Source: Spinacia oleracea (Eukaryota; Streptophyta; Magnoliopsida; Caryophyllales; Amaranthaceae). From it: a DNA stretch of 64,000 nt. The translations under genes were made by a program, and so were the position numbers. The notes under the pieces are model-generated. The model was given only the letters and a program-made list of their open reading frames with translations. It ran no database searches and was not told the origin of the DNA. Positions 34,555 through 57,504 of the stretch are shown piece by piece; position 1 is the first letter of the stretch; the number at the start of each line of letters is the position of its first letter. The DNA is taken from NCBI RefSeq assembly GCF_020520425.1, contig NC_079487.1, forward strand, positions 86,061,141 through 86,125,140, given 5' to 3'.

Positions 34555-35013
34555 TGTAGACACCTACTTTTGTCCCCATTCCCGAAAGGGAAAGGTTCGA
34601 TGATGAAAGCATCAATCTCCACTTGACAACGCATCTCCAATAAAATAAACGAATCTCAATTCCCCTTTTCATTTCACCCAAAACCTGCTATTTATGGAAA
34701 CCTGCTAAAAATAGTAACTGCCGTAATAGGCAGCTGTTAAAAGTGGCAAGTCATAAATGATAGAAACCTGTAAGAATTAGGTGTTGCACTCCAACCTAAA
34801 TCCTAAACGAGATAGAAAACTGCGAGAATCCTATTCCTAATATGATTCGGAAATAAGAGTTACGTATTAATTAAAATCCTAACGAGCCTAGAGTTCGTAA
34901 CGGGCCCAGACGCATTCCGTCATAAAATTGATACGCACTAAAAGACTCGATTAAATCTCAAACTCTACGGATTTCAGGAATCCGAATCTGACTAAAGAAA
35001 ACAGCCTAGACTC

Positions 35014-35085
35014 TATTTTCAACGCCTGGCTCTGGGCGCCAAAATCTTCGGCGCCCATGCCTGGGCGCTGAAAATACCTGGGTAC
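35014..35085. repeat. Element C double hairpin, locus 1 (5' LTR)
   Basis: TTTTCAACGCCTGG pairs with CTGGGCGCC-AAAA, and TTCGGCGCCCA pairs with TGGGCGCTGAAAA, giving two consecutive imperfect stems. The 3' LTR copy (56497-56560) is closer to perfect. Confidence 0.85.
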
Positions 35086-35149
35086 GTGTTTTTTCCTAAT
35101 TCTTTGTGGATTAGAACTTTGCAATTCTATCTTTCCACGAACTCTTCCC

Positions 35150-35158
35150 TATAAATAG
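35150..35158 (+). promoter_or_regulatory. TATA box of the C 5' LTR
   Basis: TATAAATAG follows the hairpin words by about 65 bp and lies about 596 bp into the LTR. The same sequence occurs in the 3' LTR near 56633. Confidence 0.7.
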
Positions 35159-36017
35159 ACCCCTAAATTCAACGTGAAAAGAACACACACAACACATAAT
35201 TATATTCTGAGTATTGACTCCAACCCTTAGCCTAAGCCTCACGCTGCGAAATTGTTCACGCGTTCTGTCGCAATCGATCCATAAATCGAACAGAACGTAT
35301 CCTGTCCCATAATTGAGATTCGTTAAATAAAAATGAGAAATAGCAAAGTCAAAGTGGTTAGTTTTCTGAGAACCGTGACGCACCTCTCAAGGGTGCGTCG
35401 TAATGTGTCCCTTTTCGATGATTTAACTGCTTTCCTCGCCCTTTTTATGAACTGTTAAACTAACTAAATCTGATTGTTCTATCACGCCTAACAAATATAA
35501 TATTTTTGGGAAATCGGATTATCATGCTAGGTCCCTTAATGCTACTTAAATCAGATAATCACGATCGAATTAGTATTATATGTTGCATATTGCTAAAATC
35601 AACTCAGATTAGTTTAATAGTTAACGCATGTCCCTTCAATTATTTATGCTGAGCTAGTAAGGATATCCTGCCTCTGGAGTTATCGACGAGCGAAGTACTC
35701 CTCTCGGTAGTTACAGTCCCCCGAACCCTCAATCTCTACCTTGCGGGTGTATGTTGAGAGATCCCCACACCAGGGATCACAAGGGAACCTACGGCCGTCG
35801 TGGTCAAACATAATTGCACTCCCTTTATGTCACGATAACCGGGTTTTGTCAGTTTTTCTCATTGTCGTTAAAAACTGAATGGCGACTCCTATATTACTAG
35901 TCAATTGGGTGTAAACTCACAGGAAATCCAATTACACTTGATTGAATAAAAAGAATCGTCACACCCACGAGGGACGAGGTCACGCATTAGCCTCGTGCTT
36001 TTTCGACCCCCTCACAG

Positions 36018-36036
36018 TGGCGACTCCACTGGGGAT
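36018..36036 (+). other. Element C primer-binding site
   Basis: TGGCGACTCCACTGGGGAT starts two bases after the LTR end. This wording is characteristic of Tat/Ogre-type elements. I recall tRNA-Arg as the primer for that group but cannot verify it here. Confidence 0.75.
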
Positions 36037-37237
36037 AGTGAAGGAAATACTCGTGCTTGTAGGTAATCAAAATAGCCGAAGGGTGAAACGATCCTACCCC
36101 GCGTTTATTTCCCCATCAAGTTGGGACGACCTGAAAATCAGCATATTAATGTGAACGGGCAGAATCGCATAACGAATCTCGGCTCCCTCGGGAGTTGGGA
36201 CTAAGGATACCTTTTTCCGCCAATAGGGGGGTGCATACGCCGCGCATGTTGCCCACTCGGTACTTGTGCAGGTAGTACACCTATCCCGAACCCAATCGCT
36301 CGCTCAATAGGTCCCTCTCGCCTGCATGCCCCTTTGGCTTGCACTTGCGGGTTGGCCTCTTGAGCGAAATTCGTCTGTTGAAGACACTACCTCGACCGGG
36401 GCATGTGTTGGATCTACGATAGAAGCGGTACCAAGCCAGGCGCAAATAAACTACCCATAGAAGCCTATCATAAACTACGTGGCATATTTAATTTTCAAAT
36501 CCATGTTTGTAATGTAGTTATGTGTAGAGAAATATGTGATTGTGTGCGACAAACTATCCTAGAAAACCAACGACCTTAAAAATTGCCCAAACATTCATAG
36601 ACTAATTTGCCAAAGAGTTATACCGAAACACGTGTTCCGCAAACCCGAATGATCGCCACAAAAATGAGCGACGCTCGGGATGGCCTGTAACGAATCCCAC
36701 AAACGCTGCCACGCATAAAGGACGTTATTAGGCAAGCACGCAAATCGAAGTCGCCTAAACAGAAGAAAAAAAACGAGAACCAGCCAGGGACGCATTTTCA
36801 ACGCCCCTGGCTGGGCGCCAGAAATTCTCACGCCCCTCGCTGGGCGCTGAAGTTGCTGCTTGGCCTTCTGGTCAGGCGCAGCAGCCTCGGTGCCCGCGCG
36901 AAAGGAAAATACGTAGCGCAAAAAATGTTCATAAAAAGAATTGCTACGAGGGCGTAAGAAAAGCACTCGATTTCAAAAGCGACTCGCGAAAAAATTAATA
37001 ACTCTTTGTGTCGTTGTTAGGCCTCCTACGACGACAATGCTCGGCACCAAAACCGAACATGCTAATGACTATGAATGTCACACGGGCAAGTGTTTCGAAA
37101 ATCCAAAAGAATGACCAAAATAAAAAAAAACCCAAAAAGTGTACCGACAAAAGGAAAAGTGAAAAACCAATTTAGAGAGTCGAAGTCTAGACTAAGTAAT
37201 GCTTGAAACTTTGGGAACCTAAACTTTAGCTTATCTC
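36037..37237 (+). other. Element C leader
   Basis: The 1.2 kb of untranslated sequence contains the double-hairpin word at 36794-36852. Its last 80 bp (CGAAGTCTAGACTAAGTAATG...) are shared with element B. No coding domain is visible. Confidence 0.6.
36794..36852. repeat. Element C double hairpin, locus 2 (leader)
   Basis: TTTTCAACGCCCCTGG/CTGGGCGCCAGAAA is followed by TTCTCACGCCCC/TGGGCGCTGAAG. The architecture is the same as in the LTR locus, about 390-440 bp upstream of gag. Confidence 0.85.
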
Positions 37238-39788
37238 ATGCGTAGGACTGGTCCTGCCACTTGGTGCCGATCAGGGAATCAACGGTTAGTGCGTCTCGAA
37301 GATACACCGCCAACGTCAGGTTTAGTGACTCCAAGCTCCGTCTGTCATCCCTCATTTCAAGGATCTCCGCTTCCCCAACCTCGATTCGCACCTTCAAACA
37401 TGTCCATCGAAGATTTGCAAGAGCAGATGGCTCAAATGACCCGACTCATGGGCCAACTGAAAATGGAAAATGAAGCTTTAGCGGCTGCGCAAGCCAAAAA
37501 TGACCTCGATAACGAGAAGAGGATTGAAAAAATGGTCCTACAGCAAACCATGGGGAGCAAATACTTCTCCCTCGATCCTGAACCTTTTCCTGGCAAACTA
37601 CCAGAAAAGTTCAGTTCATCTGACTTACCAAAGTTCAAAGCCACGGACAACCCCCGTGATCATCTCCTGAGCTTTGTGAATGCCATGAACTTGAAAGGCG
37701 TGGACAAATCCATGTATTTACCTGCCTTTCCTTTGTCCTGGGAACCCGTGTCGCTCAAATGGTACTATCACCAGGACCCTAAGCTCTTCCCCACTTGGGA
37801 AGACTTTGTCAATGTCTTCATCAAGCAATACTCGTTGAACATGGATTTCCAAGTCACCATGCGCGAGCTGGAAGTTCTCTTCCAAAAGAAAAATGAGGGT
37901 TTCACGACCTACTTTGCTAGATGGAGGGACCAGGCGGCCCAACTAATCAATAGGCCTCCCGAAATAGAATTGGTCCCAAAATTCATTGACAACCTAGACC
38001 CGGCTTACAGACAACACCTTAGGTACCTGAGACTTGACACTTTCAAAAGAGTTTATGATGTGGGAATAAAGATCGAGGACGACCTCGCCAAAACCGTACA
38101 AAGCAAACCCACATATAAAAACAACACCTACAATCGGGGTAACACATCCCAAGCCCAAGAAGTCCATGCTGTAGAAGAGACTCCCGCCCGAAGAAGCCCT
38201 GGAAGATGGGTCCGAGATCAAAAGTTTGCCCCACTCGGGTCGACTTTGGTACAAGCCTTTGAAAGACTAACCAATCAAGGAAAGTTGAGACCTATAGGCC
38301 CCACCCGTGACCCTCCTGTCAAAAGCAAATATTGGGTCAAAGGTACTTACTGCAAATTCCATCAAGGAAATGGGCATGACACTGAAAACTGCTGGAATCT
38401 AAAACATACGATCCAGGACATGATAGAGGATGAAGTGATACCTCTCCCTAATGTTGGCAAACCCAACAACAACAAGAGCCCACTCGGCTCTTGTCACATC
38501 TCTCTCGACCAACCAGAGAATTTCGACCCCACGGTGTATATTACACCTCAAGGTGCACCACTGGCTGTGGTCCCTATGGATCGAATCGAGAGAGAAGTGT
38601 GTGGTGTGTGGAATGATGATGCTGAAGATATTAACCTATCTCAAGTGTCGGGCCAGGACCTCTTCACTGAAACTTGGCCCGGGTATGCTCTCATTGACAC
38701 CACCCCTCAGGAGCCCGAGGTCGACAACCTCACCCGATCCGGAAGAATATACCAACCGGATATTCACCCACCTCCTATGGACGACATCCCGGTTAGGAAA
38801 ACTCTTGAGAATGGACGGCACGCCACCGTCGCAGAAGTCATTGAAAATCCTCTCCTGAAACAACTGAAAAGAACCAAGGCCGAGATTACCATCCGGGATC
38901 TCATGTGCACTTCAAAGGAACATCGCGAAAAGATTATTCGCTCACTTGACCTCATCTCAGTACCTACAGATATCACACCTGACTCATTGGTTAGCCATGT
39001 CATGAGAGATGCCGGAGAAAAAGCCATAGTTTTCACTGATAAAGACTTACCCAAAGAGGGGGGTGCTCACAATAAAGCCCTTTACCTAGTGGTTGGATGC
39101 AAAGGACAAAACATCCCCCTAGCGCTCGTAGATAATGGTTCGGCGGTTAATGTCTGCCCATTGCGAACCGCCCATTGCTTGGGGCTAGGAAACGATGACT
39201 TCCAAACCTCCACGCAAGGGGTACGAGCTTATGATAACTCCCGAAGGCCTGTATTGGGAAAAATCAACCTTACCATACAAACCGGGCCTGTGGCACGCAC
39301 CACGGAGTTTCAAATAATCGACATCAAGCCCACTTTCAACCTCCTCTTGGGGCGACCTTGGCTCCATGACTTAGGAGGTGTGGCTTCTACCTTGCACCAA
39401 ATGGTTAAACTTAACCATAACGGGGTAATACTAGAAATCCGCGCCCCTCCTCTCGACGTCAGTTGCACTATGGTTGGAACGGCCGAAACTGCAGACGACC
39501 TTTACGGGTTTCAAATGGAAGAAACAATCCAGTTCATTGAAGACTATGATCCAGCATTCCTAGATCCGCATGCATCCCGAGTCATCCCTAGAATGCTGTT
39601 AGCTCAAGGTTATTTCCCAGGAACCCCATTGGGCATAAGGAAGAAGGAATACACATTCCATCATTTTCCCGACAAATCTGCTCCCTTTGGCTTAGGCTAT
39701 GAACCAACGGAGGAAGATATTGCTGACCGCCTGTCTAGGCTACGCCTTAACAAAGCCAAACAAACCACCCTCCTTCCCCCGTATCAAA
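37238..39788 (+). CDS. Element C gag-protease, 5' part (interrupted by CACTA-2)
   Basis: The frame is open for about 850 codons up to the insertion. The first ATG (MRRTGPATWCRSGNQRL) matches the start of B. A coiled-coil-like segment lies at residues 60-100 (MAQMTRLMGQLKMENEALAA). The Gag core follows at about 105-310 (SKYFSLDPEPFPGKLPEKFS, TTYFARWRDQAAQLINRPPE). A CX2HX4HX4C knuckle-like motif (CKFHQGNGHDTENC) lies near residue 373. The protease has VDNGSAVNVCPL with its Asp near residue 631 and FNLLLGRPWLHDLGG. A C-terminal module (FIEDYDPAFLDPHAS, LGYEPTEEDIADRLSRL) precedes the break. Apart from the transposon the frame is intact, which suggests a young element. Confidence 0.88.
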
Positions 39789-39812
39789 CACTAGTAGAAA
39801 AAACCCTTGTTG

Positions 39813-40010
39813 CAACCCCCTTGTTGCAGCGTACAAGTATTAATACGCTTCAACAACCAGTCGGTCAACGCGGGTCAAACCCTTTAAAGGGTTGTTGCAG
39901 CGTACAAATTAATTGCCCCCTGCAAAAGAGATTTTTGCAGCGTACATAATAAAAGCCCCCTGCAATAGGCCTTTTATTTTGCAGCGTACATGGTAAAAGC
40001 CCCCTGCAAT
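39813..40010. repeat. CACTA-2 left subterminal repeats
   Basis: Words TTGCAGCGTACA and GCCCCCTGCAA recur at about 40-70 bp spacing. The right end (44060-44455) has the same words, mostly as inverted pairs. Confidence 0.88.
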
Positions 40011-41493
40011 AACATATTTGTAAATTTTTTTCGCTGCAACTTTAACTCAGACCAAACATTTCTATCTCAAATCACATAGCAGCGAATATCCCACGTACTC
40101 TCAGTACTCCCTTCTTCTTCTCTCGGCTTACCCTGCTTCTCGCCGGTGGTTCTCACCAGTGGTCGTCGCCGCTGGGTGTCGCCCGTCGCCGGTGGTACTC
40201 CAGCAAGAGTCTATTTAACTTCCTCGCCTCTCACTGGTGGTTCCCTACTCGAAAAAACAACCGGCGAAGTCATTCCCTGCTCGGAAAACTAAGCTATATC
40301 CAGACTCTATCTCCTCCTATAGTTCGTTTGTCTTTGCTATCTCAATTCGTAAGAAACGTCGTCGATTGCACAGGTATATTTCTAATCTATTCGTCAATTA
40401 ACATGTCTGTGGTGTTGGGGTTTGTGTATGGTTCAAATCGCCAGATCTGGAGTTGATTTAGCAACTTTTTGTATGTTGGTGTATACCTATTATTTTTGGT
40501 CCATTTCGTTAATTGTTTGGGGGAAATGATTGGTTTTTTTTAGGGTTTGTTCGAATGATTGAGTTCTTTTAGGGTCTGTTCGAATGATTGGGTTTTTTTT
40601 GGGTTTGTTAAGTATAAGATACTTCCAAATGATTTTTTTGGGGTTTTAATCATAGATGCACGATCGTGATTTGTGGAAATGTGTTCTGTGTAATATTTGT
40701 TCTGTCCAGTTCGTTTGAGAGTTGTTGATTTAATCTAATTTTTGTAGGACGATTTGATCTAGTTTTTGTTTTCTTTTACTGAATTTCGTGACAAATTGGT
40801 ACAATTGTGTGAAATTGGCAGAAGATTTGTGGGTTGAGACAGCAATGGGTGGATCCCTTATTTATGAGGATAGCAAATTTGCTAATATTGGCAATATCGC
40901 AGTATGAAGGGTAAGAGATCATAATTTTCCTGTATTTCAGTTTTAATGTTTCTTCTTTCACTTGCCTTCTCTGAGCTGGTTCTGTGAACTAGATGTAAAA
41001 TATGTTAATCTTTGCTGTGCATAATTTCAGAATTTAGGACTTTCAGTTCCATAAGTACCTAATCCGGTTGCAATATGGTAGGTGTATGGATAAGGTTGAT
41101 TTTCTTGTAGTAAGAGAAACGATAACTTGTTCTTTAAGATAACAAGGTGTACATGCTCAGGCTGTTTGACTGTTGGAGTCCCCTAGTCCTAGGCAGTATG
41201 TAATTTCCTTTTGTTTTCATTGTGTGCTTATCTGTGGTAATATGACATGGGGGATGGATGGGAAATGGCGATGGAGAGGCAAGTGATGGAGGAGGGATTG
41301 CGGGAATCAGACCCATACCTTCAACTGTTATTGGTGAATTGGTGTCAGTATATACATAGTGAATTATATTCAATGTTTTTTACTCTAGAAATACTACTGT
41401 AGACTCTATACTTGAATAAATGAGCTAAGAATCACTGAACAAATGACCCAAGGATCACTTTCTTACCGTGTGATTGTTTTGTTATATCTTTAG

Positions 41494-41614
41494 GCAACTG
41501 GCAGAGTCTGGTGCACATGTTGTCATGGCTGTGAGGAATCCTAAAACAGCTAATGAGCTGATCCAAAAATGGCAAACTGACTGGTCTGGGAAAGGCCTTC
41601 CTCTAAATATTGAG
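41494..41614 (+). pseudogene. Captured exon of a FOREVER YOUNG-like short-chain oxidoreductase
   Basis: The exon is bounded by ATATCTTTAG and GAG|GTACTA splice signals. It encodes QLAESGAHVVMAVRNPKTAN followed by ELIQKWQTDWSGKGLPLNIE. This matches the Rossmann-fold part of plant FEY-like/WW-oxidoreductase-type dehydrogenases as I remember them. It is 121 bp, so its phases fit the next exon. Upstream exons with the TGxxxGIG cofactor motif are absent, so it is a fragment carried by CACTA-2. Confidence 0.85.
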
Positions 41615-42196
41615 GTACTAAGAACTTGTTTGATTTGTCTTAGACATTATGTCCAGGGAAGTTTCTTGTTTCTGTTATCCAGGTAATTGGTATGACACCG
41701 ACACCCTGTTTGGTTACATGTTTTTTAATGTTTTCGTTTTATTTCAACAAAACATGTTCAGACAAATTCAAATAAAATGAGGTTTTTTCATACAATTTCA
41801 GACAATTTCACAAACAAAGAAGCAATTTCAGATACTTTTAAACAAGTTCAAATTATTTCTGATAATTTTAAATACGTTCAGATAAGTCAGGCAATAAGTT
41901 GAGTCAAACAATGACATCGTTGACAGTTCGTTTTATTGTGAAACATTGCATATATGTAAATTAATTCTTTCTCATTGTTTTTGTTTGCCACCCTTTTTAT
42001 GTGCTAATGAATATGTGTTAATTCAACTTTTTCATCGTTGGCATGTATGATATTCTGGGGTTTTAGTACGAGCAACTAATTAGAGGACTTTATGTTTTTC
42101 TTCCCTATAAATGGGGGAGAGAAAAGATAGAAGTCTCATTTTACATCCAACACTACTTCGTTGCTGAAAGATTAGCTTTTAATCCTTCCTTTGTAG

Positions 42197-42314
42197 GTTA
42201 TGGAACTTGATTTGCTATCTTTGGACTCTGTTGCGCAATTTGCAGAAGCCTGGAATGCAGGATTAGGACCTTTGCATGTACTAATAAATAATGCTGGAAT
42301 ATTTTCCATTGGAG
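42197..42314 (+). pseudogene. Captured next exon of the FEY-like gene
   Basis: After TCCTTTGTAG the frame reads VMELDLLSLDSVAQFAEAWN, then AGLGPLHVLINNAGIFSIG, ending at a GGAG|GTTCG donor. LINNAG is the conserved NNAG motif of short-chain dehydrogenases. The reading continues exactly from the preceding exon across a 582-bp intron. The open frame and intact splice sites indicate a recent capture of genomic DNA rather than a retrocopy. Confidence 0.87.
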
Positions 42315-42610
42315 GTTCGTTTCCTTATTACTTGTATATCCTTTCCCCTGATATTTGCTACAGGATAACCTTAGTCATTGTCATGGTCTTTTCTATTTTA
42401 TGTTCTCACCACTTGCTTTTCTGCCTCCTTTTTGCGAATGCAACTTTCTTGTAAATGGGAACTTTTTTATGGTTGGAACACTATCATCACTTTTTTTTAA
42501 AAAAAAAAAACTCCCTATGTCCCAAATTACTTTTTTAGACTTTCATTTTTATTTGTTCCATATTGGTTTTTACAGTTCTATTTCGATAAATGTCTCACTA
42601 TTATTATAAT

Positions 42611-43630
42611 GACATTTTCGCTCCAAACTATGAACTAAAGAACCTAAGGACTCATTTTAAACTTACTAAATGTTTTATATGCTTATTTTTAACTTTCTAG
42701 AACTCATTCCAATCCATTTATGCATATTTAAGGCTCATTGTGTCGTTATAGGTCATATTTAGGCTAAAGTGCCATTTTCGCTCCCAACTTTGAACTTAAG
42801 AACCTAATGACTCATTTTAAACTTATTATATGATAAATATGCTTAGTTTTAAGTTTCTAAGACTTATTCTAATCTATTTATGCACATTTAATGCTTGTTT
42901 TATCGTTATAGGTCATATTTAGGATAAAATAAGGCATTTTCGCTCCCAACTTTAAAATAAAGAACCTAAGGACTTATTTTAAACTTATTACATGTTTAAT
43001 ATGCTTAGTTTTAAGTTTCTAAGACTTATTCTAACTACTTATACACATTTAAGGCTTGTTTGGTCGTTATAGGACATATTTAGGCTAAAATGACATTTTC
43101 GCTCCCAACTATGAACTAAAGAACCTAAGGACTCATTTTAAACCTACTAAATGTTTTATATTCTAGTTTTAACTTTCTAGGACTCATTCCAATCCATTTA
43201 TGCCCATTTAAGGCTCATTGTGTCGTTTTAGGTCATATTTAGGCTAAAATGACATTTTCGCTCCCAACTTTGAACTTAAGAACCTAAGGACTCATTTTTA
43301 AATTATTATATGATTAATAAGCTTAGTTTTGAGTTTCTAGGACTTATTCTAATCTACTTATACCCATTTAATGCTTGTTTGATCGTTATAGGTCATATCT
43401 AGGCTAAAATAAGGCATTTTCGCTCCCAACTTTAAAATAAAGAACCTAAGGACTCATTTAAAACTTATTACATGTTTAAGATGCATAATTTTAACGATCT
43501 AAGACTCGTTCCAATCTATTTATGCACCTATAGGCTCATTGGGTCGTTATAGGTCATATTTAGGCTAAAATGACATTTTCGCTCCCAACTTTGAACTAAA
43601 GAACCTAAGGACTCATTTTAGACTATTAGG
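42611..43630 (+). repeat. Tandem repeat with three-monomer higher-order structure in CACTA-2
   Basis: Seven monomers start with RRCATTTTCGCTCC at 42611, 42771, 42933, 43092, 43251, 43413 and 43572, with spacings of 160, 162, 159, 159, 162 and 159 bp. Three types alternate, differing after CTCC: CTATGAACTAAAG (or a close variant), TTTGAACTTAAG and TTTAAAATAAAG. The order is A-B-C-A-B-C-A, giving a 480-bp higher-order period. It lies in what would be the intron after the captured exons. Confidence 0.93.
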
Positions 43631-43718
43631 ACATTGTCGTTAGTTTCTTGAATGTTAAAATGTGATATTTAATTTGTATTTAATCTAATGTTTAATTTAA
43701 ATTTCTGTTTTTGTAAAG

Positions 43719-43840
43719 GTCTACACTCCGAGGATTGCGCCTTATGCGAGGAATTTGATGTGGTTCGTGAGCAATGGGCTAAGTTTTTTACCAGCAAGTA
43801 TTTATTATTGGCTTTAGCGCGCTTGATCGAGTTGGTTTAG
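43719..43840 (+). CDS. Possible terminal coding exon of CACTA-2
   Basis: After the acceptor TTTTTGTAAAG an open stretch reads HSEDCALCEEFDVVREQWAK followed by FFTSKYLL, ending in TAG at 43838-43840. A similar final exon (VRDMWVEYLLKQK) occurs near the right end of CACTA-3. I suspect remnants of a CACTA protein C-terminus, but the exons are too short to be sure. Confidence 0.35.
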
Positions 43841-44059
43841 TTGTTATAGAATAAATTTTATATTAAAATGTATGTTTATGTTGAAATTGGAACATATATT
43901 TAAATGTAATATGTGCACTTTGGTTTTGGGATATATAGTATACAAAACTCCAGTTGTTGTTTTTATATTTGTTATACAGGTTGCGTTATTCTATTATTGT
44001 TTTGACAGGTTTCTATATTTGGTGCAAGGCACTCTAGGTATCCCTAAACAAAATTAGAA

Positions 44060-44455
44060 TTTTCCCGCCAAAAGTGCTTTTTTGCAGCGTACATATATGT
44101 TGTACGCTGCAACAAGGGAAAAAAATTTCGCAAAAATTCAGACTTGTTGCAGCGTACAAATAAATGTACGCTGCAAAAAATTGAGTAATTCAGAGTTGTT
44201 GCAGCGTACAAATAAATGTACGCTGCAAAAAGTTGAGTCTTTTGCAGCGTACATATATATGTACGCTGCAACAAGTCCAAAATTTTGCCAATTTTTTGGC
44301 ACTTGTTGCAGCGTACATCTAAAAGCCCGCTGCAACAAATCACTTTTTGCAGCGAACATTGTACGCTGCAACAAGTTCAGACTTGTTGCAGGCCCCCCAG
44401 TTGCAGCATACGATGTACGCTGCAACAGGGGTCTAAAAGCCCGCTGCAATAAGGG
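44060..44455. repeat. CACTA-2 right subterminal repeats
   Basis: At least six pairs of TTGCAGCGTACA and its inverse TGTACGCTGCAA form small hairpins, for example TTTGCAGCGTACATATATG/TGTACGCTGCAA. Such paired sites are presumed transposase-binding sites. Confidence 0.9.
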
Positions 44456-44473
44456 TTTTTTCTACTAGTGAAA

Positions 44474-44856
44474 GGACCCTTAACAGGATGTTCGTTCGGG
44501 AAGGAGAAGAACACCCATGCTGTGATTTCCCTGAACCCTTCGTTCAGGATGGCTTGCTAAAACCCGGATTTGAAATTTTCCATGACTGCCACACCTTGGA
44601 TGAGGCACCCCACCTCACCAAGACTAAAACAGCTGAAATATTGGACAACCAGGCTCTATGGACATTGTTTAACGAATCGAGGCCTATGGAGAACGAGACT
44701 GTGATGACTACCCGGTTAATCTCTCCTGCATCAACACTAGAAGAGGTCGAGAACGGATGGGTGAAGACATATCAGTGGGTCAATGCAAAAGGAATGGAAT
44801 TCAAGATGAGTACCGGTGAAGGACCGAAGTTTTATGAGACTAAACCCCAGGCTTGA
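44474..44856 (+). CDS. Element C gag-protease, 3' part
   Basis: The frame resumes after CACTA-2 with RTLNRMFVREGEEHPC, continues through FHDCHTLDEAPHLTKTKTA and VKTYQWVNAKGMEFKM, and ends GEGPKFYETKPQA with TGA at 44854-44856. Element B ends with the same module (GIELKIAIVEGPKFF). In autonomous Tat elements polymerase domains would follow the protease; here only a poly(A)-like AATAAAGGCGTA (44999-45010) follows. Confidence 0.85.
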
Positions 44857-46199
44857 GCCATATAGAGCACCATTAGTAAAAAGCGCCTAGTAGTTCTTTA
44901 GATTGATAGAAAAAAAAAATAGAGACTTTAGATGGTCCTAAGGCCCCTTAGGATATAGGTTAGTTTTATTTCAGTGTATTTTCCTTACTTTCCAAATCAA
45001 TAAAGGCGTAATATTTCTCCTAAAAAGTTTTATTCTAACACTAAATAAACACCAAATGTACTTGCAAAATACAAAAATAAAGAGGCGGCCCACTGCAGGC
45101 CCAACAAACAAAGCCCACTCGGTTTTGAATAGTGCCATGGGAACCAATTCCCGAAACCCACAAAATAAACCACACTATCCCATTCATATCCCCAAAACAA
45201 CCTAAAAAGCCCAACCAGTGTCATCATAAGAGTCAATCCATGCAACCCAGAATCAAAGGAAATCAAAATCCAAAACAATGCAAATGTTACCAAAAAAAAA
45301 ATCATAAAACATAGATTCCATCATACCCTTCACTAACAACACGCACTTCAACCCTCCTCAAAAGCCTACACAAAGATCTTCATATCTTCCACACCCTAAC
45401 TCCATTTTCAAAACTGTTTCGAGTCACGAATAGAAAAAATTAATCCGGACAAAAATGCATTTCACGCTAACAATAAAAAAAGCCTCCAAAATAGCCTCAA
45501 AACTGACTTTAAATACGAGCAAAAATCAAGGCACAAAAAAAAAAAAATGCAAGAACATGTGAAGCAAAGCGTCAAAAATTGACCGCCCAAGTCATTTTCA
45601 GCGCCCAGGGCTGGGCGCCGAAATTTCTGACGCCCCAGCCTGGGCGTTGAAACTCTCGGCCTGCCAAAAGTTTTCTTTTCGAAAGTGCTCGTCATTTTAT
45701 CCGCACACAACGGAAAAATAACGAACACTTGGGGGGTACAGTACGTATCCAAATAGGTTTACCAAGAATATAGCTATACAAATTAATCGAATTTTACGCG
45801 ACCTATGGCAAAAAAAGAGAACGACAGATGAAAATAATGATAATACTTCACTCATTTGACCGATTAAGTAATATGTTTCCACCTCAGGGCATATCTACCG
45901 AAATCCGGCATACTAGAACTTATTCTAAAGCTAGAACTACGCGTGACCTGATTCTGACAAGATACGTAGGCAATCCTTACCAAGGATTCGGTCCAATAAA
46001 AAAAAAACAAATATTCTTTGTGCAAAAAAGTGTTAGATATATAAAATACATAAAAAAGAGGAGAAACAAAAATAAATGAAAATGAAAAATAAAAATACGC
46101 CTTTATTGAGAAATAATAACAAGGAAAACAAAGTGCTAGGAATAAAAACAAACACAACTGAAATAAATAGAGGGCACCTACACCCTAGCAAGAACTACA
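44857..46199. other. Element C intergenic region between convergent genes
   Basis: This 1.3-kb non-coding stretch contains two identical 12-mers AATAAAGGCGTA in opposite directions. The one at 44999-45010 (plus) serves gag, and the one at 46096-46107 (minus) serves the antisense gene. Both look like poly(A) signals. The double-hairpin word at 45594-45653 lies between them. Confidence 0.65.
45594..45653. repeat. Element C double hairpin, locus 3 (between convergent genes)
   Basis: TTTTCAGCGCCCAG/CTGGGCGCCGAAA forms a nearly perfect 13-bp stem. It is followed by TGACGCCCCAG/CTGGGCGTTGAAA. Confidence 0.88.
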
Positions 46200-47125
46200 C
46201 TACTCTAGTTCTTCCGGATCATCAAATAAAGTCTTGTAGAGGGCAATGTTCGCAGGATCCACCCCCACAGTCTTCTGCGCTGCCCCAATATCAATCTCCA
46301 TAAGAACCGGCTCCTGGACACTAACTTCCAAAGATGCCAAGGCTTCAGAAACATTCTCAGTTATAGCCCGCTCAGCCTCAAGGGCACAGACAATGGTAGG
46401 AGAAGGATTATTATCATCAGCTAGACTAGCCGATGTTTCTACAGGCAGCTGAGCCTTCCTGACCCATACGTTGTTCCGGCGACGATCTCCGCGAGAGCTT
46501 GCATTTCTTTTAACAACAGCAGGCCCCTTCATGTTAGGCATCTTTTTAGGACTAAAATTGAAACGGGGAGGAACTTCCTTTCGCTTTCGATCAGGACGAG
46601 CTTTCACAGTCTTAACACTATAGGTACGAGGTCTGGCAGAATCAGGACCCTCATACTTAACACGAATACGAGGTATCAAAAGCTCAGCCGGCTCCCCATT
46701 ACGAGCCTCGGCCCTCACATCTTTATCATCCGAGCTCATCCACAACTTGTAGTTTTCAGAAAGACCCACAAAGCCATTTGTAGCTACGGCCCAACGCGGG
46801 AGACCATCATAATACTTAGCCCACGCTAGGACCCGTGTTTGTGAAAAGGCCGCTACCTTAGGTGGTACCGTATCAGAAAAGGGGATAGTCTGCCTTAAAC
46901 CATATTGACGCATGACTCGGTAAGGGAAAATATAAATGGGACGAGATAGCCCCAACAAAGAAACATAAACCGATACATCAGAACCCCCTCTCATAGTAGT
47001 CAAACCCCACCATGGTGCCACCCACTTAATAGAACAAATGCCATAAGTAAGAAAGGAGGTCCATTCGGCCTCGTCCTGGCCTTGGTGCAAGTACTTTCGG
47101 TTACCCAAAGCTATAGGGCGATAAT
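46200..47125 (-). CDS. Element C antisense gene, exon 2 C-terminal part
   Basis: Continuing from the short exon piece at 52964-53018, this part reads YRPIALGNRKYLHQGQDEAE, then SFLTYGICSIKWVAPWWGLT and IPFSDTVPPKVAAF. It ends LYKTLFDDPEELE at 46200. A basic central stretch (RKRKEVPPRFNFSPKKM) could bind nucleic acid or act as a nuclear signal. The final 60 residues are acidic. Element B's exon 2 is clearly homologous but decayed; here the frame is intact apart from the CACTA-3 insertion. Confidence 0.82.
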
Positions 47126-47139
47126 CACTACTACAAAAA

Positions 47140-48479: not shown

Positions 48480-48800
48480 CAACTCTCGTAAAGCAGCCTG
48501 CAGGCCGTAAGTTAGAAACCATCCTAGAGATGTTATGCTGGCGAAGCATATACAAGTATATTTGTGTGTATATTTGGGGATATTTTTCTGTGTATATGTA
48601 GGATGGTGTTTTATTAATTTTAATTTCCTTCCGCCCCTCCAAGAACAAACTATAGTCTTTATTTTTGTGGACACTGAATTCTGAATTATGTCCAATGTTT
48701 GTTATGGCTAAATTGGTTTCATAAAGCAGCCCGCAGGCCGCAAATTAGAAAAGTATCCTAGAGATGCTAGGTTGGCCAAGCATAAGTATTTTTGTTGCAC
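48480..48800 (+). repeat. Pair of diverged 75-bp repeats in CACTA-3
   Basis: TAAAGCAGCCYGCAGGCCG...AGAGATGYTA...AAGCATA occurs at 48490 and again at 48724. Another dispersed pair, GTGCAATAGCTAGNTTGGAG, occurs at 49739 and 50532. These are internal duplications of intron-like DNA of unknown origin. Confidence 0.7.
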
Positions 48801-51133: not shown

Positions 51134-51289
51134 TTAAGACATCACTCTTTCTATCTCCAGTAGAACTTCTTTCATTGGAGGTCTTCTCTTCTCATCTAAG
51201 TTCAAACATTGTTTTCCAAGATTAGCAATGGCGAGAAACTCTTCCTCTGAACCCTCTTGGAGGACTTGTGAACCAGTAGCCTGTAACTT
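51134..51289 (-). pseudogene. Captured 3' end of a wall-associated-kinase-like receptor kinase
   Basis: On the minus strand the frame reads VLQEGSEEEFLAIANLGKQC, then LNLDEKRRPPMKEVLLEIER, and ends VMS with a stop at 51134. This is the last kinase subdomain of WAK-type receptor kinases, with the conserved CLN...RPxMKEV...LE pattern. Only about 50 residues are present, with no catalytic motifs. It lies about 20 bp from the GLR fragment, in the same orientation. Confidence 0.83.
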
Positions 51290-51307
51290 TTGTTTTGTTG
51301 GTGGCAG

Positions 51308-51466
51308 CTAGGATCTTTGAGTGACTGTCACAAATTGACGGAAACCATTCTTAATTGGAACACCAATCTTTAACCTGTTGCCATTTCGTGAAACTACCCA
51401 ACCTTTGGGAGAAGATTTAGCCCCTCCCAGCCATATGATGGATTCAAGGCTAGCCATAGCAGAGGC
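51308..51466 (-). pseudogene. Captured fragment of a glutamate-receptor-like (GLR) gene
   Basis: On the minus strand the frame reads ESIIWLGGAKSSPKGWVVSR, then NGNRLKIGVPIKNGFRQFVT. This matches the start of the ligand-binding domain of plant GLR channels (IIWPGG...PKGW...LRIGVP...F..FV). The WPGG Pro is replaced by Leu. A stop ends the frame at 51308. The fragment is one exon piece without the pore or other lobes. Confidence 0.83.
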
Positions 51467-51949
51467 ATGTTTGCCATATGATGGACTCAAGGCTAACCTT
51501 CAAAGAGGCATGTTTATTGCTATTACTTGATACACAATCTAGGAACTAGTACCATGACACTAAAATCTGGACAATTTTCAGGAGTGTAGGCTGATTTTAC
51601 ACCTTCGCCTTTATTTGTTAAAATTTCTTGCTTGAAATAAAATCTAGGAACTAATACCATTGCAACAAAACTGGAGAGTAAATTTCAGGCATGTTTAGCA
51701 TATTATACTGCAATTTTGTTCCAGTAACAGATATGTGGACTGTACTTCTGCACTCTGCAATTACCTGTAAGGGCTGTGACTGCAATTACCTGTAAGGGTT
51801 GTAACTTTCGAATGTTGCAGTTGCCCTTGGCCTACAACCTGAACCACCCCCCTTAACAATTTTTTTTATTTGAGGCTTTACCTATTTTGTTAACGATTAT
51901 AGAACAATATATGCATTTGTTTTACTACTAATTATGCTACTTATTACAG

Positions 51950-52072
51950 TTTTCTGAAGAAACATATTCATCGGAAAATGTGGATGAGGTTAGAGACATG
52001 TGGGTCGAGTATTTGCTCAAGCAAAAAGCGGATCAAGAAAACAAAGTTGATGGTATGGAAATAACTCCATGA
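51950..52072 (+). CDS. Possible terminal coding exon of CACTA-3
   Basis: After the acceptor TTATTACAG the frame reads SSENVDEVRDMWVEYLLKQK, then ADQENKVDGMEITP and a TGA at 52070-52072. It resembles the 43719 exon of CACTA-2 in position and in the VR-x-x-W core. It may be the C-terminus of a lost CACTA protein. Confidence 0.35.
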   Translation, partial: FSEETYSSENVDEVRDMWVEYLLKQKADQENKVDGMEITP

Positions 52073-52499
52073 GTTTCGGTTCCAATTATGATAAATTGGT
52101 GTGAATGATTATATTTTGGAATTGATTTTTGTTTTACGTTTTTGGAAATTGCAATGTAAAGCTTTGACGTTTATGCAAATTACAGTTTATGTAAAGCTTG
52201 CGTTTTGAGCATTACTTGTGGGAAATATATTTTTTTTGGTAATATATGGATTATGGAATTGTTCTCGAATTGTTACAAATTATTTATTATAGCAGGTGTG
52301 GTTTTGTGCGTTTGATACCTGCTGGCTGGTATTTATAGAGGTATAAACGCAGGTGTAATGTGTATATTAATGCGGTGTCTGCTGGCCGGTAGTTTAGAGG
52401 TGTAAACGCAGGTTGAATATGCATATTAATTCTGAATATATTGTTGATCGACCTGTATTATTCTGCTATTATCGATTTCTTTTGTTTTTTTTTTAAAAA

Positions 52500-52945
52500 A
52501 AAGGTTGTCAAGAGACCCGTCAGGTGTAATAAAGGCTCTCTAGTTATAATAATAAAAAATTCAAAGAGACCCCATATCTAAGATATTAGGTCTTAATTTG
52601 TAAACAAAAATAATAATAAAAATAACAAAGAGACCCCCTATCTATATATGAGGTCTTAACTTCTTTAATAAACAAAAATAAAAATATTCAAAGAGACCTC
52701 CTATCTTACTTATGGGGTCTGAACATTTTAAAAAACAGATCTACCATCTCTAATAAGGGGTCTCTTTCCCTTCTAAAATATTTTCACCAGCTTTTACATA
52801 AGAGACCCTCTTTCTTACGTGGGGGGTCTCTAGCTTTTAACAAACAGACCCCCTCTCGATGAGGGGGTCTCTTTATCAAAGAGACCTGTGAGATAGAGAC
52901 CCCTTGAAAGGAGATCTCTTTAGCCATTTTGGAAGGGTCTCTTTG
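52500..52945. repeat. CACTA-3 right subterminal GAGACC repeats
   Basis: At least ten AGAGACCC or GGGTCTC words occur in both orientations, several forming hairpins such as AGACCCCCTCTCGATGAGGGGGTCT near 52845. Confidence 0.9.
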
Positions 52946-52963
52946 CCCTTTTTTGTAGTAGTG

Positions 52964-53018
52964 AATGTTTAGGATCGGCAGGAGCTTCCAAAAGTCTAAG
53001 CCGTTCCGCAAGCCAAAT
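52964..53018 (-). CDS. Element C antisense gene, start of exon 2
   Basis: The exon follows the acceptor TTTTTGCAG and reads IWLAERLRLLEAPADPKH before CACTA-3 interrupts it. Element B has the same exon start (IWLMESLRLLEV), so the splice site is conserved. Confidence 0.8.
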
Positions 53019-53212
53019 CTGCAAAAACAGGTACGATCAAATCAAAAGAATGAAAAGAAGGAAAAAAACGGTTCCTGGGGCGCAGTTTCAACGCCCAGGA
53101 CCAGGCGCCGAAAATTCCAGCGCCCAGCCCTGGGCGCTGAAACTCAGTCCCAGGAAAAAGAAATATATGCAAAAGGGACGTATACGTGCGCAAAGAAAAA
53201 TCGCGCGATTAC
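53019..53212 (-). other. Intron of the element C antisense gene
   Basis: The 194-bp intron begins CAG|GTAATC and ends TTTTTGCAG|ATTTGG, in phase 0. It is mostly occupied by the double-hairpin word (53084-53143). The intron in B occurs at the same codon boundary. Confidence 0.78.
53084..53143. repeat. Element C double hairpin, locus 4 (antisense-gene intron)
   Basis: GTTTCAACGCCCAGG/CCAGGCGCCGAAAA is followed by TTCCAGCGCCCAG/CTGGGCGCTGAAA. It fills much of the 194-bp intron. Confidence 0.88.
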
Positions 53213-53854
53213 CTGCAGTAATAGGGGGCTTCCCTCAAAATGTTCAGATTTGGCATCCTTCTTCAGCTCATCCGCACTCAGCAAAGTCTCGGCAACAACC
53301 AACGGCATGATAGAATAGCAACTTTCCATCTGGCTAATCAAGGGGATCAACCTTATGTCACCGAACTCACCATTGTTATTCGACAGCAAATAATGATTCA
53401 ACAAGAAAAATACAAGGGCTCGGATGTTCAATTTCTGTTCGGTCATGTTCTTACTAGGCCTAAAATAATGTTTTACAAGTTTTGCCAAGTTAACCTTATC
53501 ATCTACAACAATTTCAGCAAACATGTTATCATCTAGTCCTATGAAAGCCCTTATGGTTGTTTTACCCTCTTCAATAGTGTCAGGGGTAACAGGAGTAGCA
53601 TTAGTAGGATAACCAAGGATTGCAGCAAATTCATCGGGCAAAGGACATATTTCATTGCCCCAAAAGGCAAAAACATGATGATCAGAGTCCCAAAAGCTTA
53701 GGGCAGCATGCAGAAAGTTATAATCAATATTAATTTGTTGTAAGCCTAAAAGTGCCTCTAAGTGGTATTCTTTTAACAAAACCTTTTCTGTGGGAGTAAG
53801 GGCCTGTAGCCAACGCCTAACAGTCCGTTGGAGTGAGAAAGTAGGGATCGACAT
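53213..53854 (-). CDS. Element C antisense gene, exon 1 (plant-mobile-domain-like)
   Basis: The 214 codons start at MSIPTFSLQRTVRRWLQALT. The core LHAALSFWDSDHHVFAFWGN, then EICPLPDEFAAILGYP, follows the pattern of the plant mobile domain family (hydrophobic stretch, FWD, F...G...P-x-x-E/D-E/D). That family is found in host MAIL/MAIN-type proteins and in extra ORFs of Tat-lineage retrotransposons. A TATA box lies 85-93 bp upstream, so it should be transcribed opposite to the element's genomic RNA. The frame is intact up to the splice donor. Its function in the element is unknown; regulation or chromatin interaction is a guess. Confidence 0.8.
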
Positions 53855-53938
53855 GGCAAAAGCAATGAGTAATTAAAAACAAAGCAAAAAGAGAGAAAGA
53901 ATTTGAGAGTGGTGGAAAATAAGGACGTATCTAGCCCC

Positions 53939-53947
53939 TATATATAG
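53939..53947 (-). promoter_or_regulatory. TATA box of the element C antisense gene
   Basis: On the minus strand CCAGCTATATATAGGGGC provides a strong TATATATAG about 90 bp upstream of the ATG at 53854, followed by a pyrimidine-rich leader. The hairpin word at 54027-54085 sits just upstream. Confidence 0.75.
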
Positions 53948-54984
53948 CTGGACGCACCCAGTGACATCCTGATCCCATTCGGAAACGTGTTAGGAAATCC
54001 GAAAGTCAAATATCACCAGGAAAAGACTTTCAGCGCCCACGGCTGGGCGCCGAAATCTTTAACGCCTGGCCTTGGGCGGTGAAAATGCAGCCCAAGGCCC
54101 AGATTTCCCAAAACACGGAACAGGAAGGGACTTAAAACCGTGTTGCTAAACACGAGGCCCTATTGCAAGTAGGATCAAGCCCAAAGCACCTTTAGCTCCC
54201 AAACAAGCAAAAAAAAAAAATTAATAATAAACATTAAAAACTTGGTCAAAAACTTAGACTCTTCTCAGAAAATTCTTATGTACACTTTTCAAAAAACAAG
54301 TTAAATATCATGGTCATTCTTCGAAACACCAAAAATCTGTATCGTTAAGTCGTTGGTCTTCCAAATAAAAAATGTTTGTGTGTTAAAGAATTAACCCGGG
54401 CCAAGCTAAAGCCGATGTCGCCCGAAAACTAAAGTCGCACTCCACGGCTTCGCTAAAGTAGCACACTACTATAAAAGGTCGCTCGCACATACGAGCATGA
54501 CCCCAAACATGATTACAAGATCCGAAAAACGACCGACGAGCCCCAGTGCTTGGGGGCTCGCGGAAAATAGACTCCAACAAGGAGCGCACGATCAAAATCA
54601 CATTCCCGGACTGCGCCATACACCATATCATGTTTGGATATCTCAAAAAAAAAAAGAACAACAACAGGTTCGACCTCATCGAAAGGACGTCACTGACACT
54701 TGTGCACGGTCCTCTGATCAAAGACCAAGTCGAGTCGTAAAGGCTAGCTCAAAATCACGAAAGCAGACGGTCGCAAGACAAAGGTCCGTCTGAACACGTT
54801 GTCAGCCCACGTTCAGGTTACAACTAAATTCGAGCATCCCTCGAAAGAATTCGCTCTTGCAAGAATGAATAAAAAGAAATTCTCAAAAGAAATCGCAAAG
54901 AACCAAAGAAATAGGAACTTGCCCATCTTTAGTCGGCAAGATCGCGTCACAAACCACGCGAGTTCCCAAATCAAAAAATGAATT
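53948..54984. other. Element C region upstream of the antisense gene
   Basis: No coding domain can be read. It contains the double-hairpin word at 54027-54085 and scattered A-rich tracts. It probably combines the antisense promoter with the sense 3' UTR. Confidence 0.5.
54027..54085. repeat. Element C double hairpin, locus 5 (upstream of the antisense promoter)
   Basis: TTTCAGCGCCCA/CTGGGCGCCGAAA is followed by TTTAACGCCTGG/CTTGGGCGGTGAAAA, about 80 bp upstream of the antisense TATA box. Confidence 0.86.
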
Positions 54985-55530
54985 CAGGGACGTCCACCCT
55001 TAGCGGACAGGGCTCGCCCACCTTCAGCGGGCGGGGTCTGCGTCACTAGCCGCGCAGGTCCTCAGTTTTCGAAAAAATAAAGTCTTCAAATTTAAAATAG
55101 GCTCGCCATCTTCAGCCGGCGGGGTCTACGGCGCAAACCACGTAGGTCCTTATTTTCAAAAAAGCAAAACAAATTTCAAAATAGATTCGTCCACTTCTAT
55201 CGGACGGGGTGTCCACCCTTATCGGACAAGGTTCGCCATCTTTAGCCGGCGGGGTCTACGTCACAAACCGCGTAGGTCCTTATTTTCAAATTTCAAAAAC
55301 AGATTCGTCCACTTCTATCGGACGGGGTGTCCACCCTTAGCGGACAAGGTTCGCCATCTTTAGCCGGCGGGGTCTACGTCACAAACCGCGTAGGTCCTTA
55401 TTTTCAAATTTCAAAAACAGATTCGTCCACTTCTATCGGACGGGGTGTCCACCCTTAGCGGACAGGCTCGCCATCTTTAGCCGGCGGGGTCTGCATCACT
55501 AACCGTGCAGGTCCTTAGTCGCTGCAGCGA
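54985..55530 (+). repeat. Tandem repeat of about 118 bp in the element C 3' UTR
   Basis: ATTCGTCCACTTCTATCGGA recurs at 55185, 55303 and 55421 (118-bp period). Each unit also contains GGTGTCCACCCTTA, CGCCATCTTTAGCCGGCGGG and ACGTCACAAACCGCGTAGG. Earlier units are shorter and more diverged. Inside each unit smaller GGCGGGGTC words repeat. It occupies the place where the B-type copy has its 62-bp repeat. Confidence 0.92.
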
Positions 55531-56021
55531 TAACTTTTTCTGGTTTTCCCTTTTCCAAAATTAAAAAGATTGGTTTTCCGTTTTTTCCAAAAAAGAGCGA
55601 TGTGCTGGATTTTCCTTCGTTTTACGTCCCATAAAAACAAGGGGGTTTTCTCGTTTAGCTAGCCCTGAAAATGAGAATTTTTAAAAAAACACTTTTACCT
55701 CGTGATTGGGCTTGGCCAGGCCCAATTACACTTTATAGCTTTGATTTCGAAAACATTTGTAGCTACTCCCAATGACAAAGTGAGGGAGTTTCTACGCACC
55801 TCTAGATCCTTCCAATGACAAAGTGAGGAAGTTTCTATACTATCAGTTGACAAATCCCAATGACACGTGAGGGATATGTCGACATTTCAAGTGATGACCC
55901 TTAAGTCAAATGTTATCACTCGGGGGCTCGTGAGACCTTCGCGAAACAGGTCACATACATCATGGCTTGTGTGACGCACTCCGTCTAATACTTTGACCAT
56001 CGTCTTACTCCAAGACTCAGT
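55531..56021 (+). other. Element C 3' UTR end
   Basis: This non-coding sequence has a duplicated CCAATGACAAAGTGAGG phrase (55769 and 55816). It matches the 3' end of the B-type copy at 21081-21310 on the opposite strand. Confidence 0.6.
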
Positions 56022-56037
56022 CAAAGTGGGGGCTAAC
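56022..56037 (+). other. Element C polypurine tract
   Basis: AAAGTGGGGGCTAAC directly precedes the 3' LTR start TGTAGACACC. The B-type copy has AAAGTGGGGGCAAAC at the same place. Confidence 0.85.
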
Positions 56038-57499
56038 TGTAGACACCTACTTTTGTCCCCATTCCCGAAAGGGAAAGGTTCGATGATGAAAGCATCAATC
56101 TCCACTTGACAACGCATCTCCAATAAAATAAACGAATCTCAATTCCCCTTTTCATTTCACCCGAAACCTGCTATTTATGGAAACCTGCTAAAAATAGTAA
56201 CTGCCGTAATGGGCAGCTGTTAAAAGTGGCAAGTCATAAAAGATAGAAACCTGTCAGAATTAGGTGTTGCACTCCAACGTAAATCCTAAACGAGATAGAA
56301 AACTGCGACAATCCTATTCCTAATATGATTCGGAAATAAGAGTTACGTATTAATTAAAATCCTAACGAGCCTAGAGTTCGTAACGGGCCCAAACGCATTC
56401 CGTCATAAAATTGATACGCACTAAAAGACTCGATTAAATCTCAAACTCTACGGATTTCAGGAATCCGAATCTGACTAAAGAAAACAGCCCAGACCCTATT
56501 TTCAACGCCTAGCTCTGGGCGCCGAAATCTTCGGCGCCCAGGCCTGGGCGCTGAAAATACCAGGGTACGTGCTTTTTCCTAATTCTTTGTGGATTAGAAC
56601 TCTGCAATTCTATCTTTCCACGAACTCTTCCCTATAAATAGACCCCTAAATTCGACGTGAAAATAACACACACAACACATAATTATATTCTGAGTATTGA
56701 CTCCAACCCTTAGCCTAAGCCTCACGCTGCGAAATTGTTCACGCGTTCTGTCGCAATCGATCCATAAATCAAACAGAACGTATCCTGTCCCATAATTGAG
56801 ATTCGTTAAATAAAAAGGAGAAATAGCAAAGTCAAAGTGGTTAGTTTTCTGAGAACCGTGACGCACCTCTCAAGGGTGCGTCGTAATGTGTCCCTTTTCG
56901 ATGATTTAACTGCTTTCCTCGCCCTTTTTATGAACTGTTAAACTAACTAAATCTGATTGTTCTATCACGCCTAACAAATATAATATTTTTGGGAAATCGG
57001 ATTATCATGCTAGGTCCCTTAATGCTACTTAAATCAGATAATCACGATCGAATTAGTATTATATGTTGCATATTGCTAAAATCAACTCAGATTAGTTTAA
57101 TAGTTAACGCATGTCCCTTCAATTATTTATGCTGAGCTAGTAAGGATATCCTGCCTCTGGAGTTATCGACGAGCGAAGTACTCCTCTCGGTAGTTACAGT
57201 CCCCCGAACCCTCAATCTCTACCTTGCGGGTGTATGTTGAGAGATCCCCACACCAGGGATCACAAGGGAACCTACGGCCGTCGTGGTCAAACATAATTGC
57301 ACTCCCTTTATGTCACGATAACCGGGTTTTGTCAGTTTTTCTCATTGTCGTTAAAAACTGAATGGCGACTCCTATATTACTAGTCAATTGGGTGTAAACT
57401 CATAGGAAATCCAATTACACTTGATTGAATAAAAAGAATCGTCACACCCACGAGGGACGAGGTCACGCATTAGCCTCGTGCTTTTTCGACCCCCTCACA
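56038..57499 (+). repeat. Element C 3' LTR
   Basis: The 1462-bp LTR is aligned end to end with 34555-36016 with about 20 substitutions and no indels noticed. It is followed by the GAAAT target copy and the resumption of D's RNase H frame. Confidence 0.96.
56497..56560. repeat. Element C double hairpin, locus 6 (3' LTR)
   Basis: This is the 3' LTR counterpart of locus 1, with TTCGGCGCCCAGG/CCTGGGCGCTGAAAA as the second stem. The first stem differs from the 5' LTR copy by a few substitutions. Confidence 0.88.
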
Positions 57500-57504
57500 G
57501 AAAT

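Follow-up and report, generated by a model that had tools for sequence, protein, structure and literature searches.

Element C and the six copies of its palindrome

The window analysed here is a 64 kb stretch of the spinach (Spinacia oleracea) genome (C1:86061141-86125140), and all feature positions below are counted from its first base. It contains a long terminal repeat (LTR) retrotransposon, which we have designated element C, that has a gag frame and, ahead of the 3′ LTR on the opposite strand, an antisense gene of the PMD/DUF7745 kind. The subject of this analysis is a palindromic word of 60-63 bp that was present in six copies in this element and that may be a regulatory binding site in DNA. 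The copies were located as follows.

35014-35076 (+): palindrome in the 5′ LTR (U3), with its end 74 bp ahead of the start of TATAAATA
36793-36855 (+): palindrome in the leader between the LTR and gag (leave-one-out E 8e-11)
45593-45655 (+): palindrome between the convergent sense and antisense genes (leave-one-out E 6e-17)
53083-53145 (+): palindrome within the intron of the antisense gene, placed by the exon joining in P0001 and the splice borders
54025-54087 (+): palindrome upstream of the antisense TATA-like box, 79 bp from the box
56497-56559 (+): palindrome in U3 of the 3′ LTR (predicted fold -45.6 to -46.3 kcal/mol)

The initial annotation, made from the sequence of the window, had reported a double-hairpin motif at these same six places, and all six were recovered. 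The skeleton CGCC-N8-GGCG-N13-CGCC-N8-GGCG occurred exactly six times on both strands of the 64 kb, each time at one of the six places, and was found in 0 of 200 dinucleotide shuffles of element C. A profile trained without a given site still recovered that site, with E values from 8e-11 to 6e-17 in a 1-Mb search space; the intron copy scored slightly higher in the reverse orientation. The word contained 81 CpG per kb compared to 31 in the element, and the five kinds of site in the window had little in common apart from it.

The antisense gene and the two TATA-like boxes, the latter recognised by sequence only, were positioned as follows.

53854-46200 (-): antisense gene of the PMD/DUF7745 kind, overall extent, between the coding part and the 3′ LTR
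53213-53854 (-): exon 1 (Pfam DUF7745 3.1e-5 and PMD 0.0052, both under the curated cutoffs)
53019-53212 (-): intron of 194 nt, with GT at 53212 and AG at 53019
52964-53018 (-): start of exon 2, from the P0001/P0005 alignment and the splice acceptor
46200-47125 (-): 3′ part of the antisense gene (P0008, 91% identical over 47123-46203)
35150-35157 (+): TATA-like box TATAAATA, putative LTR promoter
53939-53946 (-): TATA-like box TATATATA, putative antisense promoter

The proteins of the antisense gene had matches among the S. oleracea entries. One of these, P0001, is a 90% identical relative of exon 1 that clears the Pfam cutoffs for both DUF7745 and PMD, and it connects exon 1 (to 53213) with an exon from 53018, which supports the placement of the intron. 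This agreed with the claim of the initial annotation that no copy lies in coding sequence, as none of the window copies was inside a recognised gene. The copies in the leader, at the convergent site and in the intron are nevertheless crossed by stop-to-stop frames of 98-128 residues. Two proteins predicted on short ENA contigs translate the word as peptide, P0004 at the intron site and P0010 at the convergent site, and the sole gene support for the frames across the copies was P0010, which is predicted on a contig of 596 bases.

Genome-wide distribution of the word

The half-pattern RCGCC-N6-TGGGCGNTGAA had 24,405 + 24,074 exact matches in the spinach genome, whereas the same pattern read backwards had 0 + 0; the number of places is lower than the number of matches because one palindrome may count on both strands. 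An LTR-specific count gave 2730 + 2730 matches, with 0 for its control. The spacing of matches mirrored the layout of the element (for example C1:1488532, 1492670, 1494317, 1495257 and 1497625).

One hundred matches of the genome total were listed, all within 2.7 Mb at one chromosome end and on one strand, and this non-random sample corresponded to 94 loci, all of which were fetched. With the word masked, the flanks of 94 of the 94 loci among the matches listed aligned (E 1e-6 or better) to one of nine recurring sites. The LTR accounted for 24 of these loci, the convergent site for 15, the leader for 14, the intron for 11 and the upstream site for 8; the remainder were at a second convergent site (7) and at sites designated D1 (7), S (4) and D2 (4). 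Five of the reference flanks were taken from the window and four from two of the loci, L110 and L111, and L092, L093, L102 and L137 match themselves in this comparison. The final site labels were assigned by flank alignment; those of an earlier 55-row set had been assigned partly by eye. The D1, D2, S and second convergent sites are in elements with C-type LTRs in L110 and L111, and the other loci at these four sites probably belong to such elements as well, judging from 100-200 bp of flank.

The alternative of a genome-wide repeat unrelated to the element family was not borne out, as all 94 loci listed were at element sites, and the specificity for the family and the fixed non-coding positions of the word were upheld. 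In 20 hand-placed stretches of 10 kb over C1 and C2 (200 kb), the word was found once, in a damaged form in an LTR of the family, along with one 4.8-bit match that was taken as chance. The long pattern had 0 matches in viral contigs, and a gag query against other contig collections gave no confirmed relative. A looser pattern had 19 matches in other contigs, all in bacterial records, which were also taken as chance. A likeness around the convergent site in L021-L027 was set aside, since these loci had been picked by the word itself.

Sequence conservation of the word

The 94 loci and the six window copies gave 100 sequences. Gaps or missing halves led to the removal of 8 of them, among which were all four from site S, and 77 distinct rows were compared. 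The core was defined as columns 10-13 and 22-25, which are outside the letters required by the search pattern. In these CpG-rich columns 8 of 616 cells departed from the majority. The corresponding numbers were 111 of 924 for the remaining columns of the arms, 162 of 616 in one loop and 179 of 462 in the other, and 172 of 462 for the segment separating the stems. By site, pairwise identity was 0.93-1.0 for the core and 0.44-0.92 for the 40-bp flanks, the lowest flank values being where LTRs have an extra dyad and align badly. The core was more alike than both flanks at 8 of the 8 sites having rows.

A second sample was chosen by similarity to exon 1 alone. This query had 2313 candidates, and six loci were cut out from the 40 listed, one of which was the window itself. 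In the five independent copies the upstream word was kept in 5/5 and the intron word in 4/5, and the core was identical to the window at 141 of 144 positions. Identity over the same copies, with gaps counted as differences, was 0.970 for exon 1, 0.919 for the promoter region and 0.850 for the rest of the intron.

These data bear on the possibility that the word is a functionless passenger, which template switching or gene conversion carried from one non-coding place to another and which persists through descent. The presence of the word six times, at places otherwise devoid of marked homology, would fit such a passenger, and so would the variation in dyad number, which was three in some LTRs and one in others (element C has one word per LTR), and the deletions inside the word that were seen in some copies. 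However, the CpG cores were more alike than the flanks, and the same kinds of place recurred beside an unlike antisense gene (see below), and we regard this explanation as unlikely.

In one locus (L114:1-1222) another common repeat stops within the intron palindrome, as though inserted there.

Predicted fold and covariation

The word has four alternating half-words, and two short hairpins or one long hairpin are therefore possible. The initial annotation had described a two-stem architecture; the predicted fold of the 60-mer was instead a single hairpin of ~29 bp. The best predicted fold was one hairpin in 77 of the 77 distinct copies on the sense strand and in 75 of 77 on the antisense strand, and with named pairs one hairpin was better than two in 74/77 (sense), 71/77 (antisense) and 6/6 of the window copies. 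The shape was judged by the best fold and the named pairs, as a comparison of the whole with two half-folds is nearly built in because the whole may contain both halves.

The partly compensating changes that the initial annotation had described were not clearly above the shuffled controls. Among the 77 distinct rows, double-change pairs numbered 8 compared to 8.3 in shuffles for the two-stem model and 12 compared to 12.8 for the one-stem model, in neither case an excess. The share of paired cells was 0.793 compared to 0.790 when shuffled for two stems (as high in 27 of 300 shuffles, or 20 of 300 within sites) and 0.768 compared to 0.763 for one stem (36 of 300, or 29 of 300 within sites). For the earlier set of 55 rows, 14 of 500 shuffles attained the paired share of the one-stem model (22 of 500 for the upstream site) and 217 of 500 the number of double changes. 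RNAalifold gave a covariation term of 0.14, with one double-change pair. No clear covariation was thus found on 6, 55 or 77 distinct rows, yet there was a weak hint of pairing. The conservation of the word is of its sequence. Of the two findings that the initial annotation had named as speaking jointly against its motif, a lack of covariation was observed, whereas the positions were not random.

A role as an RNA hairpin signal in the sense genomic RNA, for packaging, dimerisation or reverse transcription, is rather unlikely. It would be consistent with the location of all sites either within the 3′ LTR or in the stretch from the LTR promoter up to it, with predicted sense folds of -19 to -50 kcal/mol, with the retention of sites in a relative free of gag homology, and with the weak pairing hints in the paired-cell shuffles of the 55-row and 77-row sets. 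Against this, double-change pairs were not above shuffles with either two stems or one, and the word had no match in Rfam at gathering thresholds. In addition, genomic RNA is sense, and it was the antisense strand that folded better in 60 of the 77 distinct copies, with no ties, and in 14 of the 14 leader copies. The packaging or dimerisation signal suggested by the initial annotation was therefore left without support.

Alternatively, transcribed stems might feed Dicer, and the resulting small RNAs might silence the family. In favour of this, the average predicted fold of the intron copy, as part of the antisense pre-mRNA, was about -49 kcal/mol, and an excess of small RNAs has been reported for palindromic Sirevirus regions in maize (PMC10760457). 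An element would gain nothing from conserving such a site, however, and small RNAs may be a side effect of another role, which makes this explanation very unlikely.

TATA-like boxes and a possible exchange of antisense genes

The word ended 74 bp before the TATA-like box of the LTR, 79 bp before that of the antisense gene of element C and 19 bp before that of an unlike antisense gene in L110. The L110 element has an LTR that is 97% like that of element C together with a different antisense gene (PMD E 9e-12), the best relatives of which among the spinach entries are named MAINTENANCE OF MERISTEMS-like; the C-type proteins had no match to it. The word is 19 bp before the TATA-like box TTTAAATA, on the strand of the antisense gene, and is present again on the convergent side. 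The different PMD-superfamily gene was at L110:3713-4561, inside an element with a C-type LTR. This arrangement suggests that antisense gene cassettes have been exchanged between elements with C-type LTRs. Recombination exactly at the hairpins was considered and rejected, as the homology between element C and L110 stops ~250 bp short of the hairpin.

The L111 element had no gag homology, and its middle part was without any frame of at least 120 residues. It retained the word at places of the leader, convergent and upstream types; the copies were in the leader, at two convergent-type places, at site S and, half deleted, in the LTR.

The DUF1985 profile matched the L110 gene with E 3.6e-4, below the cutoff, and 4 of the 7 relatives of that gene at E<=0.0025, also below the cutoff and overlapping PMD, whereas 0 of 5 C-type queries matched. 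In P0012 and P0018-P0020, DUF1985 and PMD matches cover the same residues. DUF1985 is the domain carried by the VANC anti-silencing proteins (PMC5735166), and these overlaps hint that PMD and the DUF1985 domain of VANC may be related. No convincing relative of the L110-type antisense protein was found among solved structures; the predicted structure of P0011, which is of the L110 type, had a mean predicted local distance difference test (pLDDT) score of 46.8 and was hence not used for a fold search.

A putative protein-binding site

The sequence conservation of the word without clear covariation, its dyad symmetry and its position before three TATA-like boxes together point to a DNA-binding site. 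We therefore put at about even the chance that the word is a sequence-specific regulatory site at the DNA level, at which a protein sets or protects transcription of the element; this was one of the options raised by the initial annotation, and the sequence conservation lends it support. The word would then consist of two dyads side by side, with four half-sites that alternate between TTTCARCGCC and GGCGCYGAAA and whose CGCC/GGCG cores are almost invariant and spaced by ~14.5 bp. A nuclear protein acting as a dimer or oligomer may bind it near the LTR and antisense promoters, and the same protein may also bind it at the other non-coding gene borders. Such binding could set or protect transcription, for example as an enhancer, a boundary or an anti-silencing site. 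We infer here that the TATA-like boxes are promoters, that a protein binds the word and that its binding affects transcription. Candidates for the binder would be a host factor and the PMD-superfamily protein that the antisense gene of the element itself encodes, and the presence of one word beside two unlike antisense genes would favour a host factor or a protein that acts across subfamilies.

Several observations weigh against the binding site. The leader, intron and convergent copies have no known promoter nearby, and the L110 promoter is a guess because the start codon is ~640 bp past its TATA-like box. The predicted hairpins are very stable on both strands, which leaves room for a role in RNA. 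Most copies are probably dead, and part of their likeness would therefore come from descent; moreover, the half-word search pattern favours intact copies among the 100 matches. The rule that only the core is conserved did not hold everywhere, as loop 1 equalled the core in likeness at the leader and both loops were more alike than the core at the second convergent site. The independent sample was small (five copies with three core changes), and in its fifth copy another repeat was joined inside the intron word.

In a more specific form of the proposal, the palindrome would be recognised by the PMD-superfamily protein that the antisense gene of the element encodes. This protein would spread across the non-coding DNA of the element and keep the LTR and antisense promoters unsilenced. 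We consider this quite unlikely. It would amount to VANC-like anti-silencing of separate origin in an LTR retrotransposon, with gene cassettes exchanged and the target word kept, an idea to which we give equally little credence. The two very different antisense genes, of the C type and the L110 type, with the same word argue against a strict one-to-one pairing of protein and word.

Exact matches to half of this one palindromic word thus number in the tens of thousands in a crop genome, and in the loci examined the word keeps to fixed gene borders within a high-copy group of retrotransposons. A binding-site function, if real, would offer a direct handle on the transcription of two opposed genes by such elements and on the way the elements contend with silencing, as well as a concrete target for the role of antisense PMD genes in Ty3/gypsy elements.

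Comparison with known systems

Organelle double-hairpin elements are GC-rich, are repeated in non-coding mitochondrial DNA and are dispersed as units. The word described here differs from these in being nuclear and in having fixed positions within an LTR element family.

Palindromic boxes upstream of LTR TATA boxes are already known from Sireviruses, the RM boxes of which are short palindromes of 10-20 bp, mostly with a CGG-CCG core, in at least eight copies (PMC2829016). Like the word in element C, they are non-coding, form CpG and precede the TATA box of the LTR, and more copies are found ahead of an internal gene (PMC2829016). The word differs in its CGCC/GGCG core and 60-bp double dyad, and in being present once per place at five kinds of place, whereas at least eight RM boxes are clustered in the LTR. 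Sireviruses are also of the Ty1/copia lineage, whereas element C is Ty3-like by weak, below-cutoff gag matches.

The motifs bound by VANC in VANDAL elements are likewise short, specific to the family and enriched in non-coding parts, including introns and upstream regions (PMC5735166; PMC10398659), and there too the element encodes a protein with a possibly related domain (DUF1985 in VANC, PMD here). VANDAL elements are DNA transposons, however, their 9-base motif is non-palindromic and forms dense tandem arrays in the same orientation, and the binding of VANC was shown, whereas protein binding to the word in element C is predicted.

Like element C, Retand/Tat elements have an antisense gene located downstream of the coding part and before the 3′ LTR, have tandem repeats ahead of that LTR, and include non-autonomous members (PMC11963269). 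Their antisense genes are of the TRP28 type in 97% of clusters (PMC11963269), whereas those found here are PMD-superfamily genes; Pfam gave only PMD and DUF7745, and no TRP28, for the gene of element C. A word search of the Retand paper (PMC11963269) found 'palindrom' solely within a cited title and no 'hairpin'.

The PMD proteins MAIN and MAIL1 have a role in silencing and are required by genes with a promoter motif (PMC7156037; PMC5418596). This 'DOWN' motif resembles the present case, by its description only, in that PMD proteins are linked to a DNA motif in promoters; it differs in that host genes and no transposon are involved, and direct recognition is one hypothesis (PMC7156037). PMD clades occur in gypsy elements, it has been speculated that PMD captured by Mutator-like elements (MULEs) serves in anti-silencing (PMC5418596), and among the plant gypsy elements covered by a survey PMD was the commonest atypical domain (PMC9289625). 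The link of PMD to silencing and to a promoter motif is suggestive.

No account of the word, or of a dispersed double dyad in Ty3-like elements, was found in the portions of the open-licence literature that were searched. The available text of a spinach repeat survey (PMC7840529) had no hit for 'palindrom' or 'hairpin', and a search for six 13-letter words in the literature matched two papers, both on animal topics.

Other features of elements C and B

The remaining features of element C were positioned as follows.

34552-36017 (+): 5′ LTR, 98.57% identical to 56035-57500
56035-57500 (+): 3′ LTR, paired with 34552-36017
37238-39788 (+): gag frame as far as the nested CACTA-type insert (weak Pfam Retrotrans_gag match)
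39789-44470 (no strand assigned): CACTA-type DNA transposon 1, nested, with terminal inverted repeats, junctions and a 3-bp duplication AAA
47126-52963 (no strand assigned): CACTA-type DNA transposon 2, nested in antisense exon 2, with a 3-bp duplication AAT
54987-55540 (no strand assigned): tandem repeats upstream of the 3′ LTR (repeat families D5, D6 and D8)

The gag frame matched Retrotrans_gag with 22.1 bits (E 1.8e-4, cutoff 24.1) and also Ty3_capsid, both of these Pfam matches being weak and below their cutoffs. A Pfam scan that covered gag and both long antisense frames showed no reverse transcriptase. Antisense exon 2 was split by transposon 2, and with the two nested CACTA-type inserts subtracted, element C's own length is ~12.4 kb. 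Transposon 1 has seven tandem units of ~160 bp at 42558-43644 and many inverted TGTACGCTGCAACA words close to both ends. The repeats at 54987-55540 consist of small hairpin-like words (GTCCACCCTTAGCGGAC), which are also present in L110 and L111.

A related element in the window, element B, was considered as a second system with the same word and rejected, as there were just weak similar words in its LTR. Several of these, like GGCGCAAGAAAT and AGCGCAGGAAATCTCCACGCC, are in the LTR region at 20250-20560 (-), and they may represent the same site in a distant or decayed form. Repeated GGACCGGACCGAA/TTCGGTCCGGTCC palindromes, perhaps an unrelated small transposon, were seen at 13610-14430, in the space that separates the convergent genes of element B.

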